A stretch of DNA of 64,000 nt from Maridesulfovibrio ferrireducens (lineage in GTDB: Bacteria; Desulfobacterota; Desulfovibrionia; Desulfovibrionales; Desulfovibrionaceae). This document shows, piece after piece, positions 8,290-55,191 of this stretch. The notes beneath the pieces were generated by a model, which saw nothing but the letters and a program-made list of their open reading frames with translations, was not told the DNA's origin and did not search any database. The position numbers and the translations under genes were made by a program. Each line of letters starts with the position of its first letter. Within the stretch, counting starts at the first letter, position 1. The stretch lies in the NCBI RefSeq assembly GCF_016342405.1, contig NZ_JAEINN010000015.1, positions 1 to 64,000 on the forward strand, in the 5' to 3' direction.

Positions 8290-9717
8290 TTAATTCCTGT
8301 TCAAATTTTCTGGAGGTTTTGGGAGGGTGGTGATCAGGGTCGTTCCCTGATTCCATGAGCTTGTAAAAGAAATATCTCCGCCTGAAACTTTAGCGATCAG
8401 TTTCGAGCTGTATGTTCCCAGTCCTGTCCCGTTCCGTTTGCCGTGGGTTGCATAACGATCGAAAAAGCTGTTTTTAATAGAACTCGGAACTTCACCGAGA
8501 TTATGAATTTCAGTGATTATCGATTGTTCCGTGTCATGGAGGCGAACCGTTATAGTCGAATTCTCAGGAGCTGCCTCTGCGGAGTTTTTAATCAGGTTCG
8601 AGAACATGGTGATGATGAGGGACGCTTCGCCGTAACAAACAAGCGGACATTCATCCTGAAGAGGTTCATCCTCTAAAAAGCAGAGAATTTCAAGCTTCTT
8701 ATCATCAACTAACTGACTTATATCACCGATTGCGGCTGTGATTGCTCTAAAAAGGTTGAACGGATGTGAGTCCGCAACAAGAGAACCTGTTTCGAGTCTT
8801 ATTAGTGTTAAAGATGTGTCAATTTGACGAATCATCCTTTCACTTGTTTTGCGCACTATTTCCGCGAGTCGCTGGTAGTCATCACTAAGATCAGCTTCTG
8901 TTTCAAGTATGCGGGACATGCCTACAATTGTAGCTGTAGGAGACCTCAAGTCGTGTCTGGCGATGCGTTCCATTTCTTCTCTGAGCTGGAGCTGCTTGCG
9001 TTGCTCGGTAACATCAAGTGCCAGAAGTAAAAAAACAGAAGGAGCGACTTGTTCAATGGTGAGATCCCAGAATCTTTCATATGCGCAAACAGATTTTAGT
9101 GAATGAATGCGGTATGCTTCCTGATCAGTGAAGAGGTTATTGCGAACATCCTCAGCAAGAAAAGATATAAAAGGTATGCTGGATTTGGAGCTTTTAATCG
9201 GTAACGTCTCTAAGGCAGATTTATTTGCCATAATGGTTTTTCCGGTACAAGAGCCAACTAAAAGAGCAGGAAAAGGAAGTCCTTGAAGAATTAAATCGTA
9301 GAGTTTTGAGTTTTCATCTGTCTCTCTATTGCGAATAATCTTTTTGTGATATTCGGAAATATTTGAAATGATGCTTGTCGCTGATGCCGTGGATGGTATG
9401 AACGAGACATTATGAAAATCAAAAAGAGATTCAAACGAGTTAGGATTATTTACGTCTATAATGAATATAGCTTCCGCGTCCTGATTTATTTCCCGGATAG
9501 ATGAGAACGTTTCGTAAGGACGGTCAAAATCCGCAAAAATTATTAGGTCCGGTTGCTGACTGGCATAGATAAAAAGAGTTTCTCTGGGATTTTTTGCAAT
9601 AGAAATAGAATGGCCGAGGTTGTGAAGCTCAAGCATTAAAGAATGCAGTAATGTGCTTTTCCCGGTTATAAGGATGTTCAGTCTTTTTCGGGAATCGTCA
9701 AAACAACAGTCTTTCAT
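8290..9717 (-). CDS. Histidine kinase with N-terminal receiver-like domain
   Basis: 475 residues, no membrane segment, so cytoplasmic. Residues 12-125 resemble a receiver domain (alternating hydrophobic strands and 'QPDLIIFADFDRP' where the phospho-Asp would lie). Next comes a PAS-like region (about 140-235), then the HisKA helix with phospho-acceptor H255 in RHDLRSP, and an HATPase domain with N-box 'NLIKNSAEAA' and G-box 'GTGLGTYSSKLI'. The HDLRSP form is that of kinases of the HisKA_3-free, SpoIIAB-unlike class often found with two-component hybrids. It lies 15 bp after the EAL-HDOD gene and 4 bp before a radical SAM gene. The cognate regulator is not in the window. Confidence 0.85.
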   Translation of the reverse strand: MKDCCFDDSRKRLNILITGKSTLLHSLMLELHNLGHSISIAKNPRETLFIYASQQPDLIIFADFDRPYETFSSIREINQDAEAIFIIDVNNPNSFESLFDFHNVSFIPSTASATSIISNISEYHKKIIRNRETDENSKLYDLILQGLPFPALLVGSCTGKTIMANKSALETLPIKSSKSSIPFISFLAEDVRNNLFTDQEAYRIHSLKSVCAYERFWDLTIEQVAPSVFLLLALDVTEQRKQLQLREEMERIARHDLRSPTATIVGMSRILETEADLSDDYQRLAEIVRKTSERMIRQIDTSLTLIRLETGSLVADSHPFNLFRAITAAIGDISQLVDDKKLEILCFLEDEPLQDECPLVCYGEASLIITMFSNLIKNSAEAAPENSTITVRLHDTEQSIITEIHNLGEVPSSIKNSFFDRYATHGKRNGTGLGTYSSKLIAKVSGGDISFTSSWNQGTTLITTLPKPPENLNRN

Positions 9718-9732
9718 ATTGCCTCCAACTTC

Positions 9733-10986
9733 TTATACTGAACCGGGTGTCTGGAAAAAACTGTTCGCCCAGCGCATTGAGTCATAATAGTTACGTGAAA
9801 CTGAGACCGGGTTCAGCCCGAGTTCAAGAATCGTTTCTTCGAGTTTGTCCCATTGTGCTGCTTCGAAATAGTCTATCAATTCAAGGTGTTTGCGATAAAT
9901 ATTTTCTTCACCGCATAATGCAGCTCTGAGATCTTCATCAAGGGGTAAATACTTGGTTACGACATTCATAGGCATATCGAACATTGCCCCCAACAGGGAG
10001 AATAGACCAAGTAAAAACATGGATTCAGCAGGAATATTATGGTTTGAGTCTAACGTTACCATCTCAAGAAATTTTGCGCGCTGAGTTGCCAGTTGCGGAA
10101 GCTCGGTACTTTTCTTGTTGGAAATAAGATCCGTCAAAAGTATAACTCTCAGCCAGTTTTTTATAAGTTTCCAGCCAGCAAGAACTATTGCCTGCTTTAT
10201 TGAAGTTATTTTTTGCGAGAATCCGAATGTCGGAGAGTTGAGTAGTGTAAGCAGTCTGTAGCAGATAGATACATCGTTTTGCAGAGCTTCAGCCAGAGCT
10301 TCAAAATCCTGCGAGGGATCTTCAATCAGTTTGAAAAGTTTGAGTTTTACAACTTCACTGGGGCGTAGTTTTCTGCCTGCAATATTCTCAGGACGTTTAA
10401 AATAAAATCCTTGAAAAAAAGCAAAGCCGAATTTTTGAGCCAATTGGTAATGGCTCATGTCTTCAACTCTTTTCGCTATTAACTTCACACCCTCTTTTTG
10501 GGCGATACAATGTATCCGGTGAAGTTGGTCCTCGTTAGCGGATTTGATGTCTACTATCACGACATCTGCATATTTTATTAAAATATCACCTTGTGGGCGT
10601 CCTTCAAAATCGTCGATGGCAACTGTATATCCATCTTTTGAAAGATCTTGAAGTGCTCTTATGAGATTTGGAGTCGGAGGAGTCATTTCCGGTATTTGAA
10701 CAACTGTGTTCTTTGCCGGTAATGAATATGGAATTTTTTCTATAATAGATTTATGAGAAAAATTGATAACAAGCTTAACATCACCGGGGAGTTCTTCTCC
10801 CGGAATAGAGCATGAATCTGCGGCAACGTTTAAGGTTGCTTTATAATCATCAGATATAATGGCGGTTGTCGCTGAACTGCTGTTACGAAAAAACAGCTCA
10901 TATCCCCATAGTGATTGGTCCGGCTGAAGAATCGGCTGCCGGGCGAAAAATATTTGATCGTAGAGCGGGGTGTTTGTTATAGCCAT
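9733..10986 (-). CDS. EAL-HDOD (YuxH-type) signalling protein
   Basis: 417 residues. The N-terminal half is an EAL-like domain, but the catalytic EAL triplet reads YELFFR and the later metal/Asp motif reads 'AIDDFEG', so it is probably a non-hydrolytic c-di-GMP sensor or scaffold. The C-terminal half (from about residue 200) is a HDOD domain ('DVSICYRLLTLLNSPTFGFSQKITSIKQAIVLAG'), the HD-related output module lacking the HD doublet. YuxH-type proteins couple second-messenger or stress signals to partners and are common in aquatic deltaproteobacteria. It is the first gene of a compact operon with a histidine kinase and a radical SAM protein. No strong ribosome-binding site is visible before the ATG. 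Confidence 0.9.
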   Translation of the reverse strand: MAITNTPLYDQIFFARQPILQPDQSLWGYELFFRNSSSATTAIISDDYKATLNVAADSCSIPGEELPGDVKLVINFSHKSIIEKIPYSLPAKNTVVQIPEMTPPTPNLIRALQDLSKDGYTVAIDDFEGRPQGDILIKYADVVIVDIKSANEDQLHRIHCIAQKEGVKLIAKRVEDMSHYQLAQKFGFAFFQGFYFKRPENIAGRKLRPSEVVKLKLFKLIEDPSQDFEALAEALQNDVSICYRLLTLLNSPTFGFSQKITSIKQAIVLAGWKLIKNWLRVILLTDLISNKKSTELPQLATQRAKFLEMVTLDSNHNIPAESMFLLGLFSLLGAMFDMPMNVVTKYLPLDEDLRAALCGEENIYRKHLELIDYFEAAQWDKLEETILELGLNPVSVSRNYYDSMRWANSFFQTPGSV

Positions 10987-35924: not shown

Positions 35925-36119
35925 TTTGTTCTCCTTGTTTTATTACTAGTTAGCAAAAAAAATCAGTTACATCTATTATTGCGGTTCGGATAAAAATTAA
36001 TAGCTTTCGCGAATAAGTTCTATTTGGTAATATTAACTAGAAATTGTTTCGCAGTATGAGAATGGCTCGTTAATGAGTCAGGGGTAAAGAAGTATGATTT
36101 TCATCGAGTGTGTATACAA

Positions 36120-46523: not shown

Positions 46524-47612
46524 CTAAAGCGTTCCAAGCTTCATAAATTTAAGGCAGGCGTCGGCTACTCTATCAAAATCCACACCGCCGCTGATTTCTA
46601 TGAGTGTTGTTTTAGAAAGTATCGTTGCGTATGTGTTTATATCAGGATCTTTTATTTTGTCAGGTGAATCAGGAAGGTAGAATAATCCTGATTCTTTCAT
46701 GAAAGCAGGGAGCAGATCTTTGCGTTTCATTGGATCAACGATTTTAATGACCGTTTCGTTTTCATTTCTCTGCCAATTCAAAATAACTAATCCGCACATT
46801 GGAGCGCGAAGAATAAATTTGTTTTTGCCGTAACATTCATCAATCAAAGCATCATATTTATGTTCGAGATTCCATAGCTCCGCTTTTGGAAGAGCCATGA
46901 ATTTTTTTTTGTCATTTTCAGCAACAACGTGGATTAAATCGGGGTTGTTCAAGGCTGTTCCGGGATTTATTCTGGGCTGTTTAGCAACACCGTAGACAGT
47001 TATTTCAGAGTCGTTATCTTCAATCATGACTCTGTCATTGCTGATAAAAGTTGTACCTTTACTCATTAAGTGCAGAGCCAGAGTAGACTTTCCCATTCCT
47101 GAAAAACCGGCAATGCCGATGCCGCGTCCGTTTTTAAGAACTCCCGCAGCGTGCCCCAGCAGGCAGCCCTGATTGAGTTTGTATTCTATAAAGCGATTAT
47201 TGATGAAGTTTATGACCTGATTGGAATTTTCAATGCAGGGACCGATAGCAATGTTTTCCCCGTGTCCGAAGGCGAAGATCATTCCGGTTAGACTTTTGTA
47301 AACAACTCTTCCGTCAGCAAGGTCTGCATGTTCATTTTTAATTTTTGTTTTTCCAGCATCGGGTTGTTTAACAACATATTTAATTCCAAGATCAATGGGC
47401 AGGCACTCATGAGCAGTGATAAGAATTTCTGCTTCTGCATCCTCAATCAGGAATTCTTTAAAATAATTTTTGAGGTATGCAAGCAGTGCAGTGCTGTTTA
47501 CTCTAGTTTCAATTACACAGCCGTCGAAATCGATGAAAAGAGATTCTGTTGCCGGAAATTCTTTGCGATATTTTTTTACTATTTCAGCTATTGTGATTGT
47601 ATTTCCATTCAT
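46524..47612 (-). CDS. HprK-related kinase B (GAK system)
   Basis: 362 residues. The second half has the HPr-kinase-like fold: Walker A 'GFSGMGKST' (169-177) followed by 'TFISNDRVMIE', the position of the HprK Asp-Asp pair, and 'KQPRINPG' resembling the nucleotide capping loop. The first 150 residues are family-specific. HprK enzymes phosphorylate Ser in partner proteins; no HPr or PTS gene lies here, so the substrate differs. This family (HprK-related B) is named for its co-occurrence with an ATP-grasp enzyme in the GAK system. Its ATG overlaps the stop of that ATP-grasp gene by one base, indicating translational coupling. It is last in the operon. Confidence 0.82.
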   Translation of the reverse strand: MNGNTITIAEIVKKYRKEFPATESLFIDFDGCVIETRVNSTALLAYLKNYFKEFLIEDAEAEILITAHECLPIDLGIKYVVKQPDAGKTKIKNEHADLADGRVVYKSLTGMIFAFGHGENIAIGPCIENSNQVINFINNRFIEYKLNQGCLLGHAAGVLKNGRGIGIAGFSGMGKSTLALHLMSKGTTFISNDRVMIEDNDSEITVYGVAKQPRINPGTALNNPDLIHVVAENDKKKFMALPKAELWNLEHKYDALIDECYGKNKFILRAPMCGLVILNWQRNENETVIKIVDPMKRKDLLPAFMKESGLFYLPDSPDKIKDPDINTYATILSKTTLIEISGGVDFDRVADACLKFMKLGTL

Positions 47613-48484
47613 TATTTTAATTTCTCAATTACATAATCAGCATACATGGACGCTGCGTCTATTCCCCGCGCATCAAGCAGTCCCCTGAATCCTCCGAAGG
47701 CTGATACTTCAAAAATGAAAGGTCCTTCATCAGTGAGTGCAACATCCACGCAGGTGAAGTCGAGGTTAAACAGAGATTGTGCTTTGCGGGCAAGTTCGAT
47801 TATTTCTGCTGGAGGATCAACTGGAGCGTATTTTCCGCCGCTTAACGTAGTGGTATTCCATGCGTCATTTGTTTTACAGCGGGCATATGTTGTTACATAT
47901 TTTCCGTCTAAAAAGACTATCCCAAGATCTCTGTTTTTGAGATCGATAGTCTTTTGAATGTACATGGTTTTGTATTTTTTGCTGTACTTTTCGATAGTTT
48001 CGCGGGCTTGCGGGTTAGGCTTAAGCAGAAACATGCCGCGGGCCTTGGTGCTGTATAGAGGTTTGAAAACTGCTTCGCCGTATTCCTCAACTGCCGCAAG
48101 TGCATGGTCAATATCTTCGGTGATAGTTGTCGGGGGCATTGGAATATTACCCAACTGCAACGATATCGTACAGGTCAGCCTGTCCAGCACTCTTAATATA
48201 CTGTACGGGGATGAAAATATTTTAACTCCCCGTCCTTCGAGCAAACGAAGCATTTCGAGGCGGTCAAGCAGCACCGGCGAATACTGCTTGCCTATTTTTT
48301 TTATGATAATTCCGTCAAGTTCAGAAAGATTCACTCCGTCAACAACAGCTTTGCCGGAAGGAAGATCGAGGCGCACGTCTTCCATCTCGAAGAGCATTTT
48401 ATCTTGACCGGTTTTGCTGGCGACAACTTCGGCCAGTTGTTCGGATGACCATGCCCCTTTTATTCCGATTACTCCAATTTTCAT
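47612..48484 (-). CDS. ATP-grasp ligase of the GAK system
   Basis: 290 residues, RimK/DdlB-like ATP-grasp fold. Visible are the N-terminal 'IGVIGIKGAWSSEQL', the ATP-binding lysine segment 'GEAVFKPLYSTKARGMFLL', 'YIQKTID' and the metal-binding 'FTCVDVALTDEGPFIFEVSAFGGFRGL'. Such enzymes join an amine to an acyl phosphate, for example adding amino acids to proteins or small molecules. Here the acceptor is unknown; the small XXXCH protein encoded in the same operon is one candidate. It starts 24 bp after the PhoU-APH gene and overlaps the HprK-like gene. Confidence 0.85.
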   Translation of the reverse strand: MKIGVIGIKGAWSSEQLAEVVASKTGQDKMLFEMEDVRLDLPSGKAVVDGVNLSELDGIIIKKIGKQYSPVLLDRLEMLRLLEGRGVKIFSSPYSILRVLDRLTCTISLQLGNIPMPPTTITEDIDHALAAVEEYGEAVFKPLYSTKARGMFLLKPNPQARETIEKYSKKYKTMYIQKTIDLKNRDLGIVFLDGKYVTTYARCKTNDAWNTTTLSGGKYAPVDPPAEIIELARKAQSLFNLDFTCVDVALTDEGPFIFEVSAFGGFRGLLDARGIDAASMYADYVIEKLK

Positions 48485-48508
48485 AATATATCCGTTACGT
48501 TGCTTGGG

Positions 48509-50161
48509 TTAGTAATGAAGAATATCTTCAGGCAGTACAAAGTCGTTCCAGTTACCGTTATAGCGGTTTATTTTTTCAAGAAGGAATATGGAGCGATTAA
48601 ACATTTCTTTTGCAAATCCGTAATTGAATTCGAAGCGTGTCGACGTATAGAAGGAGCGTGCTAATGCGAGAGTTAGTCTTGCTTTCCATGTAGCATCTTC
48701 ATTTTCCAATGCAAATTCTTCTGTAAAACTGTAAAATCTCGATATTACAGCATTGATTTTATTTCTTATGGGCCTGTCGAATATGGGCATGCGGAAGCTT
48801 GATACAAGAAATACAGAAATATCCTGAATATAGTCAAAGTCTCTTGATCTATGGAGATCAATGAATCTGATTCGTTCATCTGCATTGCTGTAAACAACGT
48901 TGTTGCAGTTGAAATCTCCGTGGATAAAAACGGTGAACGGAGCGGGAAGATTCTTCTCAACAGACATTGCTTTATTAATGAGATCTGTTGCGGAAGTTAT
49001 GTCTACAGCCCCCTGTGATCCGGCAAGGGTGTTGAATTCGGGATGAACTTGCAAAACGCCGGGCTGGCGGGATTTGAGCTGTTCCATATAGGTGGTTGGA
49101 AACGGACCTGTCTTAATGGTTTTTTTCCAGATATGGCGCAGGGTCTGTTCCAGAGTGAACAGTCCGTTTTCAAGATCGGCATCGTCAGATGTGAGGATCA
49201 TTGTGTCTAATGTGCAACCCGGCAAAAATTCCACTAACATCGAGCCTTTATTTTCATCAGGAGATTCGTGATAGCCGAAAATGTCAGGAACCATGCCCGG
49301 GAAATTATTATTCCAGAGTTTGAGGTTGTCGCGTTCCTGTTTGATTTTTGCCAGATTTCCTTCTTTATAAATACTTCCCTGCGCAACCGGAGGACCGTTT
49401 TCTTTATCTTTTGCCTGTACATGTCCGATACGGCATCCGGAGCGGGAGCCCCATATTCCTTGAAAATCAATGTCTGAAAACGAGCCGTCAAAGCCTGAAA
49501 CCGTCAAGGTATGCTGTAGCGATTCAAATTGTTCAATCTTGATGCGTTCTCCTAAAATAGAGAAGATAATTGCTTCCCCGATGTTAAGGAGAGAGTCGCC
49601 GATTCTTTCAAGGTATCGGAATATGAAAAGGACTGTAACTAAGTCCGGGATATTTTTTCCGCTTCCCATCTCCGCCATGATGCGATTGAAATTGTCTTTA
49701 TACAGAGAGTCGAGGCTGTACTCTGATTTACAAATTTCAAGAGCTAAAGGCATATTATCTTCGTTGAAACCTTTTTCAATTAGAGCGGTGGTTTCTTCGA
49801 TTATATCGAATGCTTCCGGGTTTTCGAATCGGTTTACAAAATTTTTGTCTTCAAGATAAGCCATCTGGTTGACTATGTTGACGCAGTAGTCACCGATTCG
49901 CTCAAGGTTGACTGATGCGAGTTGTATTGCTCTGATTTTATTCAGAGATTTGTCGTCCAGTTCAGTATCTTTGTTTATGCGTGAATAACTTTTGTTTTCG
50001 ATGATGGTTTTAAGGTTATCAATATGGTCATCTCGCGAGGTAATTTTACGAAAAAGTGCGCGAGAGGGGGAGTTCACAAATTTTCTAGTCGCGCCGATCT
50101 GGGTTTTTACTTCAAGGACAAGAAATTTAAAATTTTCATCTAAACCTTCAAATGTCATCAT
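48509..50161 (-). CDS. PhoU-domain/aminoglycoside-phosphotransferase-like fusion
   Basis: 550 residues. Residues 1-215 are two PhoU-like helical bundles ('NLERIGDYCVNIVNQ' and 'YLERIGDSLLNIGEA', each with the PhoU metal-binding E/D pattern). The remaining part is a protein-kinase-like APH fold with catalytic loop 'HGDFNCNN' (H414, D416, N421) and a DFG-like 'FIDLHRS' (D435). PhoU domains usually sense phosphate status through metal clusters, while the APH fold phosphorylates small molecules or proteins. The fusion suggests phosphate-gated kinase activity within the GAK operon. Two ATGs lie in tandem at the start. Confidence 0.85.
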   Translation of the reverse strand: MMTFEGLDENFKFLVLEVKTQIGATRKFVNSPSRALFRKITSRDDHIDNLKTIIENKSYSRINKDTELDDKSLNKIRAIQLASVNLERIGDYCVNIVNQMAYLEDKNFVNRFENPEAFDIIEETTALIEKGFNEDNMPLALEICKSEYSLDSLYKDNFNRIMAEMGSGKNIPDLVTVLFIFRYLERIGDSLLNIGEAIIFSILGERIKIEQFESLQHTLTVSGFDGSFSDIDFQGIWGSRSGCRIGHVQAKDKENGPPVAQGSIYKEGNLAKIKQERDNLKLWNNNFPGMVPDIFGYHESPDENKGSMLVEFLPGCTLDTMILTSDDADLENGLFTLEQTLRHIWKKTIKTGPFPTTYMEQLKSRQPGVLQVHPEFNTLAGSQGAVDITSATDLINKAMSVEKNLPAPFTVFIHGDFNCNNVVYSNADERIRFIDLHRSRDFDYIQDISVFLVSSFRMPIFDRPIRNKINAVISRFYSFTEEFALENEDATWKARLTLALARSFYTSTRFEFNYGFAKEMFNRSIFLLEKINRYNGNWNDFVLPEDILHY

Positions 50162-50258
50162 AATCTGGGCCTAATGTTTAAGGTTTTCGTTGTGACATCG
50201 TCAGACTTTTTTTCAACGGTCATTTGAGGTCTCCATGCGTTCCACAATCGGGAATAAT

Positions 50259-51401
50259 TTATCCAGCCAGCCTTGCTCTGTATTCATCTATCACAGTTTG
50301 TCTGTCTATTCCGGCTATGATCAGTCTTTTTCTGATATTCAGGTCGTTCCATGCCGGTTGCAAACCTATTTCGCGGGCTGCTTTTGCCGTGTCCTGCGTG
50401 TCTATCGGTTTGGTTTTTTCACTCATGTGGCAATCGTCGCCCATGAAAATTAATATTTCTTTGCTTCCGGTCCGGCGGTTAATGTTTTGCTCGTTTACAA
50501 CTGAGATCAGGAAATCTGTATAACGCTGGGACTGAGGATTCCAGGCTTCAATTCCATCAACGTCATACTTGGCAAGCAGTATGGGCCAGAATTCTTCGGG
50601 ATGGGGAATTACAACACAACCTCCGAGTGAACGGGCTTCTTCAATTACTTCGGTTGCTCTGTAGAAAAATTTTAAGGAAAAGTCATTTTTCACAAGTATT
50701 TTAACTGCTTTTAAGTAGGCCTGAATTCTATTGATGACGGTGTTGCCGAATTTCGGGCGCAGTGCATCAAAATAGTTTTTAATGAGCTTATTTTTGATTG
50801 AAGCTTTTGGAACATCCGACCAGTTTTCGTCAAGCATGGTTTGAATTTTGGTTACATAAATTCTAACCATTTCAACCAGCGCATCGTCTGCTCCGGTTTC
50901 GCGTGCGGCTTCATGCACTCTTTTTTCATTGGGTTGAGTGATAGAATCCATAAATTCGAATAATTGCGATGTGCGGTACTTGAACGTGTGCGCCAGCATG
51001 GATTTTAAAACGTGAGCGTTTTCAACTTTCTCATTTTCAAAGTGAAGCAGTAATTGAACTTTCTGATTGAACCCGCTGGCATAACAGTCAACCTCAACAC
51101 CTGTATAAGGACCGTAGCTCATGAGTTCATTATGCTGCGTGGGGATTAACAGATCATCCGTTCTATTAGGGAACATAGCTTCTATTCGCTGCGAGATGAG
51201 GTTCATGGGAACAAATTCAGGGTGCCAGTGCACGGCGAGAACCTTTTCCTGTCTGTGGTGGATTTGAGAAGGAGTTACGATTTGTTTAATCTGCCATTCG
51301 GCTAAATCAACGGAAATAACCGCAGAGAAAATTTCATGATCTTCATCTGTTATTTCCGGGGAAATCTCAATCTCTTCAACGCACACTTGTTTTGTATTCA
51401 T
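50259..51401 (-). CDS. PHP-type metal-dependent hydrolase (GAK operon)
   Basis: 380 residues. Metal-ligand motifs of the PHP fold occur in order: 'VHWHPE' (H58, H60), 'TQHNE' (H90), 'GVEVDCY' (E103), 'VIPHPEEF' (H267), 'DGIEAWN' (E285) and 'MGDDCHMSE' (D323, H325). A helical insert fills residues 115-250. PHP enzymes hydrolyse phosphoesters, such as histidinol phosphate or tyrosine phosphates in proteins. Placed next to two kinases it could reverse a phosphorylation, which is an inference. It lies 97 bp before the PhoU-APH gene and 10 bp after the XXXCH gene. Confidence 0.82.
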   Translation of the reverse strand: MNTKQVCVEEIEISPEITDEDHEIFSAVISVDLAEWQIKQIVTPSQIHHRQEKVLAVHWHPEFVPMNLISQRIEAMFPNRTDDLLIPTQHNELMSYGPYTGVEVDCYASGFNQKVQLLLHFENEKVENAHVLKSMLAHTFKYRTSQLFEFMDSITQPNEKRVHEAARETGADDALVEMVRIYVTKIQTMLDENWSDVPKASIKNKLIKNYFDALRPKFGNTVINRIQAYLKAVKILVKNDFSLKFFYRATEVIEEARSLGGCVVIPHPEEFWPILLAKYDVDGIEAWNPQSQRYTDFLISVVNEQNINRRTGSKEILIFMGDDCHMSEKTKPIDTQDTAKAAREIGLQPAWNDLNIRKRLIIAGIDRQTVIDEYRARLAG

Positions 51402-51411
51402 TTTAATCTTC

Positions 51412-51942
51412 TTATTTATGTTGAGAATGGCAGTGGGCTTTAATGTTGTTTAAACTGTCACATGCTTTGTGAGCTTCTTCAATATTATTGTTCTCGACAG
51501 CATTTTTAAAAGTGTCACAGGCGGTGATGTATTCTTCATAATATTCATCACCGTAACCTTCGTAGGTAACCATCAGTTTAGAGTCTTCTATGAACTGGCT
51601 GACAGTCTCTCCGGGAGGAAATGAACCTGCGTGAATGGTTTTAAATATTATTTTAAAAGAATCTCCCATTCGCTTTTTAAGACTGCTGTATTTGAGTCTG
51701 CCGGAAATACCGTCATCCGTTTTCTGTTCTTCCGATTCGTAAGCAGGTTTGGCTTTAATTTTGATAGTTGTTTGTTCTAAATTGTGACTGATATTGATTT
51801 TAAGTTTTTTAAAGCCAGCCATGAAAGTGAAGCCGGGCATGTCCTCTGATTTTCCGGTTTCGATAGCCTCAGCCATTTTACGAAGGAAGTCAGGAAGCTC
51901 ATCCGGCTTTATGAATTTTTCAATCTTGTTTTCTTTACCCAT
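51412..51942 (-). CDS. XXXCH-domain protein of the GAK system
   Basis: 176 residues from the ATG at 51942 (GAGGTGA eight bases upstream); the frame is open to 51972 without a site. Residues 5-65 resemble the amphi-Trp domain found in GAK clusters ('ELPDFLRKMAEAIETG', then alternating strands). The C-terminus ends in a helix with 'KACDSLNNIKAHCHSQHK': a Cys-His pair placed like CxxCH of cytochromes but lacking the first Cys, as in the XXXCH domain. It has no signal peptide, so covalent heme by the Ccm route is unlikely. It is the first gene of the operon and a plausible substrate of the enzymes encoded behind it. Confidence 0.78.
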   Translation of the reverse strand: MGKENKIEKFIKPDELPDFLRKMAEAIETGKSEDMPGFTFMAGFKKLKINISHNLEQTTIKIKAKPAYESEEQKTDDGISGRLKYSSLKKRMGDSFKIIFKTIHAGSFPPGETVSQFIEDSKLMVTYEGYGDEYYEEYITACDTFKNAVENNNIEEAHKACDSLNNIKAHCHSQHK

Positions 51943-54330: not shown

Positions 54331-54408
<78 letters not shown>

Positions 54409-54429
54409 GCATTATCAAAAACATGTTGC

Positions 54430-54504
54430 TGGTAGGGACACAAGGACTCGAACCTTGATTGACGGAATCAGAATCCGCTGTCCTGCCAATTGAACGATGT
54501 CCCT
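54430..54504 (-). tRNA. tRNA-Gln (CTG), copy 1
   Basis: Minus-strand cloverleaf: acceptor AGGGACA/TGTCCCT, discriminator A, encoded CCA (54430-54432), anticodon loop TTCTGAT reading CAG. It is the first gene of a Gln-Glu unit. Confidence 0.95.
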
Positions 54505-54517
54505 GCAACGAGAAGTT

Positions 54518-54546
54518 TTTCTATGTGGATTGTGTCCTTCTGTCAA
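54518..54546 (-). promoter_or_regulatory. Promoter of tRNA Gln-Glu unit 1
   Basis: On the minus strand a perfect TTGACA (54541-54546) and TAGAAA (54518-54523) are separated by 17 bp, placing the start about 8 bases before tRNA-Gln. Confidence 0.78.
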
Positions 54547-54786
54547 CAACTTATATTATTAATTTTGAAGAAATGTGAAAGTTAGTTAATCTAAATAATA
54601 TTAGCGGGTTGTCTGTAATGTTAAAAATCGATTCTAAGCAGTTTTAGTTGTGATATGGGGTTATGGCTCATTCTGTGTATATTCCAGAAGAGGGTAGGGG
54701 GTTTTGAGCCTGTGAGCAGGGAGTGGCGTCGTGGATAGGTTGGTTGCTTTTACGTTGTAAGCCTTGAAAGCTTTCCGGCTGCAAAA

Positions 54787-54821
54787 CGAAGAAAGGACTG
54801 AATCTTGCGATTCAGTCCTTT
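54787..54821 (-). terminator. Terminator of the second tRNA unit
   Basis: A 13-bp perfect stem (54792-54804 with 54809-54821) is followed on the minus strand by TTTCTTCGTTTT. Confidence 0.82.
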
Positions 54822-54831
54822 TTCAAATTCG

Positions 54832-54909
54832 TGGCGTCCCCAAGGGGATTTGAACCCCTGTCGCCGGCGTGAAAGGCCGGTGTCCTGGGCCAGGCTAGAC
54901 GATGGGGAC
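54832..54909 (-). tRNA. tRNA-Glu (TTC), copy 2
   Basis: Identical to copies 1 and 3 except for one base in the D-arm region. CCA is encoded at 54832-54834. There is no good promoter directly upstream, so it is probably the third tRNA of the unit that starts at 55233. Confidence 0.94.
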
Positions 54910-55017
54910 GCATCTTAAATATCGTACCTGCTTCTGTGAGCCTGATCACATTGTTGAAGCGGGTTGTGTTGCTGTCAGCACGACTCTATTGGCTTAGCGA
55001 GTCTTCATGTTTTTGAT

Positions 55018-55095
<78 letters not shown>

Positions 55096-55116
55096 GCATT
55101 ATCAAAAACATGTTGC

Positions 55117-55191
55117 TGGTAGGGACACAAGGACTCGAACCTTGATTGACGGAATCAGAATCCGCTGTCCTGCCAATTGAACGATGTCCCT
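55117..55191 (-). tRNA. tRNA-Gln (CTG), copy 2
   Basis: Identical to copy 1 (anticodon CTG, encoded CCA at 55117-55119). It is the first gene of a Gln-Glu-Glu unit. Confidence 0.95.

Follow-up and report, generated by a model that had tools for sequence, protein, structure and literature searches.

A trimmed GAK gene cassette in Maridesulfovibrio ferrireducens and its possible place in a phosphate-regulated pathway

We examined a 64,000-nucleotide stretch of Maridesulfovibrio ferrireducens DNA (the window; positions 1 to 64,000 of contig NZ_JAEINN010000015.1, assembly GCF_016342405.1), in which a compact operon encodes members of the GAK cassette, a set of five NCBIfam families (TIGR04354 to TIGR04358: amphi-Trp, HprK-related B, ATP-grasp, CofD-like and XXXCH, respectively). 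In the list of open reading frames and their translations, five open frames, all on the minus strand, span positions 51942 to 46524, the same five same-strand genes at the same place as in an initial annotation of this DNA. That gene set was right but incomplete, in that CofD and amphi-Trp are also cassette members. The gaps between the five genes, taken in order, are 10, 97 and 24 bp, followed by a 1-bp overlap, which fits a single transcript. In the list the XXXCH frame begins at a TTG lying 30 bp upstream of the ATG used here. The features are as follows.

51412 to 51942, minus strand: XXXCH protein (TIGR04358) with an N-terminal amphi-Trp-like and a C-terminal cytochrome-c'-like domain; 176 residues from the ATG at 51942
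50259 to 51401, minus strand: protein resembling PHP-fold metal-dependent phosphoesterases, by predicted fold; 380 residues
50158 to 50223, minus strand: amphi-Trp gene remnant of 21 codons, identified by comparison with three sister species
48509 to 50161, minus strand: fusion of a PhoU domain and an APH-type kinase (PF01895, PF01636); 550 residues
47612 to 48484, minus strand: GAK ATP-grasp enzyme (TIGR04356) of the RimK/MptN branch; 290 residues
46524 to 47612, minus strand: HprK-related kinase B (TIGR04355); 362 residues
39004 to 40173, plus strand: divergent GAK CofD-like protein (TIGR04357), away from the operon

The assignment to GAK made in the initial annotation holds, with three operon proteins above the curated NCBIfam cut-offs: XXXCH at 111 bits (cut-off 40, residues 85-174), ATP-grasp at 464 bits (cut-off 300) and HprK-B at 558 bits (cut-off 200). 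The CofD-like protein, encoded 6.4 kb from the operon next to a gene that was named endonuclease-IV-like by eye, scores 415.8 bits (cut-off 340). The window therefore resembles the NCBIfam cassette in having four of the five families and the operon order of its relatives, and differs from it in that CofD is divergent and lies outside the operon and that TIGR04354 finds no stand-alone amphi-Trp protein in the strain's whole genome. For HprK-B, the Pfam HprK domain PF07475 falls just short of its cut-off (31.0 versus 33.3 bits), and the P-loop G172-x-G174-K175-S176-T177, H154 and the N192-D193-R194 (NDR) motif do not vary across the 29 aligned sequences. In the PhoU-APH fusion both PF01895 (78.7 bits) and PF01636 (32.0 bits) pass the Pfam cut-offs, PF02958 scores 32.1 bits, and the translation contains the APH motif HGDFNxxN and an IDL motif.

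The ATP-grasp enzyme is closest to amino-acid ligases by its next-best families (MptN, 147 bits; RimK, 101 bits) and by a profile search of the PDB, which matched RimK, LysX and alpha-glutamate ligases. It reads EVSA where two solved relatives have EVN. Its MptN likeness and the CofD relation (TIGR04357, 416 bits) echo the CofD/CofF pair of the F420 pathway, and GAK could accordingly be a cofactor pathway resembling F420 or methanopterin tailoring, with the CofD-like protein making a phosphodiester, the MptN-like ATP-grasp adding glutamate and the kinases supplying activated precursors. We consider this improbable: the EVN of the relatives is EVS in 16 of 16 sequences, CofD was seen in five of nine alpha/gammaproteobacterial stretches examined and not in the other four, and the PhoU domain, together with the Pst/PhoU linkage and the exclusion of polyphosphate kinase PPK1 described below, would be left unexplained.

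For the product of the gene at 50259-51401, searches of Pfam and NCBIfam returned no match at all, and a sequence search of the PDB gave a best and sole match at E 1.5. Its predicted structure, with a predicted local distance difference test score (pLDDT) of 90.7, has the PHP fold and places the protein in the PHP superfamily: the model matches 3o0f at Z 16.0 (245 aligned residues, root-mean-square deviation 3.6), the Vibrio RNase AM 9etk at 15.7 and 2yb1 at 15.0, ranks 1 to 8 are all PHP proteins, and unrelated folds appear from rank 9 at Z 4.4 or below. Phosphoesterases are among the nearest solved structures. H58, H60, H90, E103, D105, H120, H267, D323 and H325 are the same in all 33 aligned sequences, and all of these except D105 are the probable metal ligands.

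The XXXCH protein ends in ...HCHSQHK, with His172 kept in 33 of 33 aligned sequences and Cys171 in 32 of 33, and the position of the first Cys of a complete CxxCH is held by other residues, mostly Lys. The model (pLDDT 88.9, predicted template modelling score 0.61) pairs a beta-alpha-beta-beta domain with a four-helix bundle. A PDB profile search with the last 40 residues matches cytochrome c' at a best E of 0.0046; de novo helical proteins score about as well (E 0.0042 and 0.0053). Structural matches to cytochrome c' and b562 reach Z 11.6-12.1, those to 2j9b and 6r6o lying at 11.6-11.9, values under Z 13 at which helical bundles may agree by chance. At the other end, the N-terminus of the XXXCH protein of D. 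gigas matches the amphi-Trp model at 28 bits, below the cut-off of 31. XXXCH appears to resemble cytochrome c' and c-556 in a C-terminal helix matching the haem-attachment helix, where it keeps the His that would ligate haem and, of the two Cys in CxxCH, the second; it differs from them in having no first Cys and in its fusion to an amphi-Trp-like domain. Inspection by eye, with no predictor run, revealed no export signal. XXXCH is possibly a cytoplasmic c'-like protein that either binds haem or has lost it, and its invariant His and near-invariant Cys look more like a haem motif than an obvious modification site.

Comparison with three species of the same genus indicates what the window strain has lost. 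These sisters share one operon, in the order XXXCH, PHP, amphi-Trp, PhoU-APH, ATP-grasp, HprK-B, CofD and second amphi-Trp. At the place of the remnant they carry a 90-residue amphi-Trp gene whose product begins with MxxEKK and closes with KTLN[IV]xx, and the remnant keeps MTVEKK...KTLNIRPRL, matching both ends; the second amphi-Trp gene is missing from its place in the window. Judged by this sequence comparison, the locus is a trimmed and rearranged GAK cassette, not a complete one, and an amphi-Trp gene has been lost. The CofD of the window shares 44-45% identity with the copy that the three sisters have inside the operon, whereas the ATP-grasp enzyme is 79-82% identical to theirs, and in a tree of 24 rows this CofD sits on a long branch (2.67) with no supported neighbour. 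The remnant, the rearrangement and the CofD branch are what would be expected if the cassette of this strain were decaying and doing little, having shed its amphi-Trp genes and the CofD of the operon, with a divergent CofD at another place. This is very unlikely in our estimation, as all five operon frames are open with their motifs conserved, the ATP-grasp identity remains high and CofD still exceeds its family cut-off. Just upstream of XXXCH, a minus-strand gene at 52161-52697 matches the DVU_1551 NTP transferase model over its C-terminal 164 positions only, at 108 bits against a cut-off of 315, and relatives of it occupy the same place in the three sister genomes.

Beyond the genus, TIGR04356 passes its cut-off in 97 of the 199 genomes of a Desulfovibrionaceae sample and in 16 of the 247 genomes of a phylum-wide sample. 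Gene order was compared in the best 80 of at least 511 stretches, each encoding a protein related to the ATP-grasp enzyme, in the named genomes scanned; not all of these stretches need be GAK loci, and many GAK loci are interrupted by contig ends. The best 80 come mostly from Desulfobacterota, with a few other phyla represented by metagenome-assembled genomes and with alpha/gammaproteobacteria (among them Labrenzia, Tropicimonas, Onishia and Methylophaga). Two of the loci (L041, L048) belong to the genus Nitratidesulfovibrio. Rather than unrelated families without a shared neighbourhood, we find the conserved neighbourhood that the initial annotation had anticipated: PhoU-APH, ATP-grasp and HprK-B come in this order on the same strand in 68 of the best 80 loci, with CofD after them in 47. 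When the window is counted too, giving 81 loci, clusters of relatives take in PhoU-APH at 75 loci, HprK-B at 73, ATP-grasp at 69, CofD at 59, PHP at 58 and XXXCH at 37. The amphi-Trp genes of GAK loci fall into two families and stand mainly before PhoU-APH and after CofD, and the three members scanned, two of one family and one of the other, match the Pfam and NCBIfam amphi-Trp models. A polyanion-binding role for amphi-Trp found no support (median net charges +1 and -2). A link to sugars through a neighbouring PHP-glycosyltransferase fusion (12 of the best 80 loci; glycosyltransferase part from Pfam, PHP part read by eye) was also rejected as not specific to GAK, the fusion being carried by 13 of 14 GAK-positive and 6 of 8 GAK-negative genomes. 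This PHP-GT4 fusion occurs in 19 of 22 genomes, a set made up of the window strain and 21 relatives, and is missing from the window strain's own genome.

The alpha/gammaproteobacterial loci take a different form. PHP and XXXCH are absent from all nine, profile searches included; with queries from one of them (L102), histidine-phosphatase and ApaH-like genes were found in nine of nine, NUDIX genes in eight and SixA-NUDIX genes in eight, several of the nine loci being close kin and three coming from Onishia taeanensis strains. One set of phosphohydrolases thus appears to stand in for another between the locus forms, which suggests that the shared GAK product carries phosphate esters or anhydrides. 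Separately, the PHP-type GAK operon of Desulfogranum japonicum (L058) has a SixA-NUDIX-like gene between PhoU-APH and ATP-grasp (9081-10004); it is 38% identical to that of L102 and has no NCBIfam match at 1e-10, and this genome also carries PPK1.

These loci bear on the proposal in the initial annotation of a modification and de-modification cycle acting on the small XXXCH protein or on a metabolite. XXXCH as the target is weakened, since both it and PHP are missing from all nine alpha/gammaproteobacterial loci and its C-terminal Cys-His resembles a haem motif, and a metabolite fits better. Modification of small proteins is nevertheless the nearest rival to a metabolite pathway: HprK-B would phosphorylate, and ATP-grasp would ligate amino acids to, amphi-Trp and XXXCH, the PHP enzyme would reverse these steps and PhoU would sense phosphate. 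The ATP-grasp enzyme is RimK-like, and HprK relatives act on proteins or peptides, with HPr and the lasso-peptide kinases as examples. In addition, amphi-Trp tracks GAK (13 of 14 GAK-positive versus 2 of 8 GAK-negative genomes), and in one amphi-Trp family (family 6) the Ser of an 'ESxQD' stretch is kept in 34 of 40 sequences. Yet the consensus of the second amphi-Trp family has no Ser of this type, XXXCH is dispensed with in the alpha/gammaproteobacterial form, and the window genome keeps the HprK-B and ATP-grasp motifs with no TIGR04354 match. On balance we regard protein modification as somewhat unlikely.

We investigated the phosphate genes PstS, PstA, PstC, PstB, PhoU and Pit near the cassettes, with query genes taken from three of the loci. 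Of 59 loci, 8 have such a gene within 3 kb upstream, always in the cassette's direction, and none has one on either strand over the same distance downstream (one-sided Fisher test, p = 0.003). Leaving out the three loci from which the queries came, the counts are 5 of 56 and 0 of 56 (p = 0.028). Some of the loci in these counts are closely related, so they do not represent independent events. Over 9.4 kb the counts are 9 of 50 upstream and 2 of 49 downstream, with the three query loci included, one of which, D. gigas, was added by choice. In the D. gigas genome, in which the rubredoxin of that species is matched at 100%, the order is PhoB-like regulator, PstB, PhoU, XXXCH, PHP, amphi-Trp, PhoU-APH, ATP-grasp, HprK-B and CofD. 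The PstB and PhoU genes directly before XXXCH exceed their cut-offs (TIGR00972, 416 versus 343 bits; TIGR02135, 203 versus 130 bits), and the best family of the regulator further upstream is PhoB at 255 bits, below the cut-off of 296. The presence of Pst, PhoU and Pit genes upstream of some GAK loci supports the phosphate input that had been suggested from the PhoU domain. At another locus (L066) a phosphate transporter of the Pit/PHO4 type (PF01384; 4504-6774, plus strand) is encoded directly upstream of the GAK operon, and its C-terminal part has a weak PhoU match of 15.5 bits, below the cut-off.

We also find that GAK and PPK1 (TIGR03705) exclude each other within Desulfovibrionaceae. Among the 199 genomes, 97 have GAK, 38 have PPK1 and none has both, where 18.5 would be expected (one-sided Fisher test, p = 1.5e-13); put differently, PPK1 occurs in 0 of 97 GAK-positive and in 38 of 102 GAK-negative genomes. 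At the level of 44 genera, 25 have GAK, 8 have PPK1 and one has both, in different genomes (p = 0.0075). Neither PPK1 nor PPK2 was found in any of 14 GAK-positive genomes tested, those of D. gigas and the window strain included, and among 8 GAK-negative genomes tested PPK1 is present in two, one of which also has PPK2.

Taken together, we propose, with a probability of about 0.5, that the GAK enzymes form a pathway under phosphate control for the synthesis and breakdown of a highly phosphorylated small molecule, which would serve as a store of phosphate or energy or as a signal of phosphate. Phosphoryl or phosphodiester groups would be added by the CofD-like transferase and by the kinase modules, namely the APH domain, the HprK-like protein and the ATP-grasp enzyme, and the PhoU domain would couple synthesis to phosphate status. 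Removal of phosphate would fall to the PHP enzyme in anaerobes and to the NUDIX, SixA, histidine-phosphatase and ApaH-like enzymes in the alpha/gammaproteobacterial version. In Desulfovibrionaceae, GAK would substitute for PPK1 polyphosphate, to which it is similar in the proposed store role and in the mutually exclusive distribution within the sampled family; the GAK enzymes themselves are distinct from PPK1. A further likeness is to inositol pyrophosphate metabolism, which employs the ATP-grasp enzyme PPIP5K, the NUDIX enzyme DIPP and a histidine phosphatase: alpha/gammaproteobacterial GAK loci combine ATP-grasp with NUDIX and histidine-phosphatase genes, and both systems have a tie to phosphate sensing, but the GAK ATP-grasp enzyme belongs to the RimK/MptN branch.

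Several observations weigh against this proposal. The nearest relatives of the ATP-grasp enzyme are amino-acid ligases (MptN, RimK, LysX) and not known sugar or inositol kinases. No Pst, PhoU or Pit gene lies within 3 kb upstream at 51 of the 59 loci, and over 9.4 kb the two sides differ only weakly after removal of the query loci (6 of 47 upstream versus 2 of 49 in the downstream control). In the phylum sample of 247 genomes, GAK occurs in 16, PPK1 in 23 and both in none, where only 1.5 would be expected, so that this count tells little by itself. Among 30 further GAK genomes, hand-picked from the best 80 loci, PPK1 is present in 8, namely all 7 alpha/gammaproteobacterial genomes tested (from the nine such loci) and, within Desulfobacterota, the Desulfogranum genome, which rules out a replacement of PPK1 by GAK everywhere; no PPK1 above cut-off was found in the other 22, for which genome completeness is not given. 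The exclusion within the family may also partly reflect clade structure, through ecology or shared descent. Finally, neither of the amphi-Trp genes nor an operon CofD is left in the window strain, whose copy of the cassette may be weakened.

A more specific version of the proposal is that GAK is the missing pathway of the phosphate granules of sulfate reducers, making and consuming, instead of polyphosphate, a diphosphorylated sugar store that shuts out PPK1 in Desulfovibrionaceae; we judge it unlikely. In D. gigas the store would be the alpha-glucose 1,2,3,4,6-pentakis(diphosphate) of its granules, on which we found no paper in the literature searched and to which, to our knowledge, no genes have been assigned so far. 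Jones and Chambers reportedly treated polyphosphate in D. gigas in 1975. The D. gigas genome paper (PMC4287179) has no word beginning with 'polyphosph' or 'granule' in its main text.

Around the operon, between positions 36000 and 56000 of the window, no Rfam families other than tRNAs were found. A tandem array on the minus strand at 54331-55191 holds three tRNA-Glu (ttc) and two tRNA-Gln (ctg) genes with Rfam scores equal within each kind, apparently a duplicated block. Promoter-like sites number 17 versus 13.4 expected, near chance, and terminator-like sites 14 versus 5.7 expected, all 14 of them inside genes.

The GAK protein families are already named in NCBIfam, and the model names cover neither the PHP enzyme nor the PhoU-APH fusion nor the phosphate linkage. 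Neither the name of the system nor its model accessions led to a paper in the literature searched, in agreement with the earlier statement that no function is established; as far as that literature goes, the phosphate linkage, the mutual exclusion with PPK1 in Desulfovibrionaceae, the swap of hydrolases between locus forms and the cytochrome-c'-like reading of XXXCH are likewise not in print. A system present in 97 of 199 genomes of one family of sulfate reducers, and reaching into the alpha/gammaproteobacteria, has thus gone without a paper that we could find. If the proposed store or signal is real, it would account for the phosphate granules of sulfate reducers that have no PPK, such as D. 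gigas.

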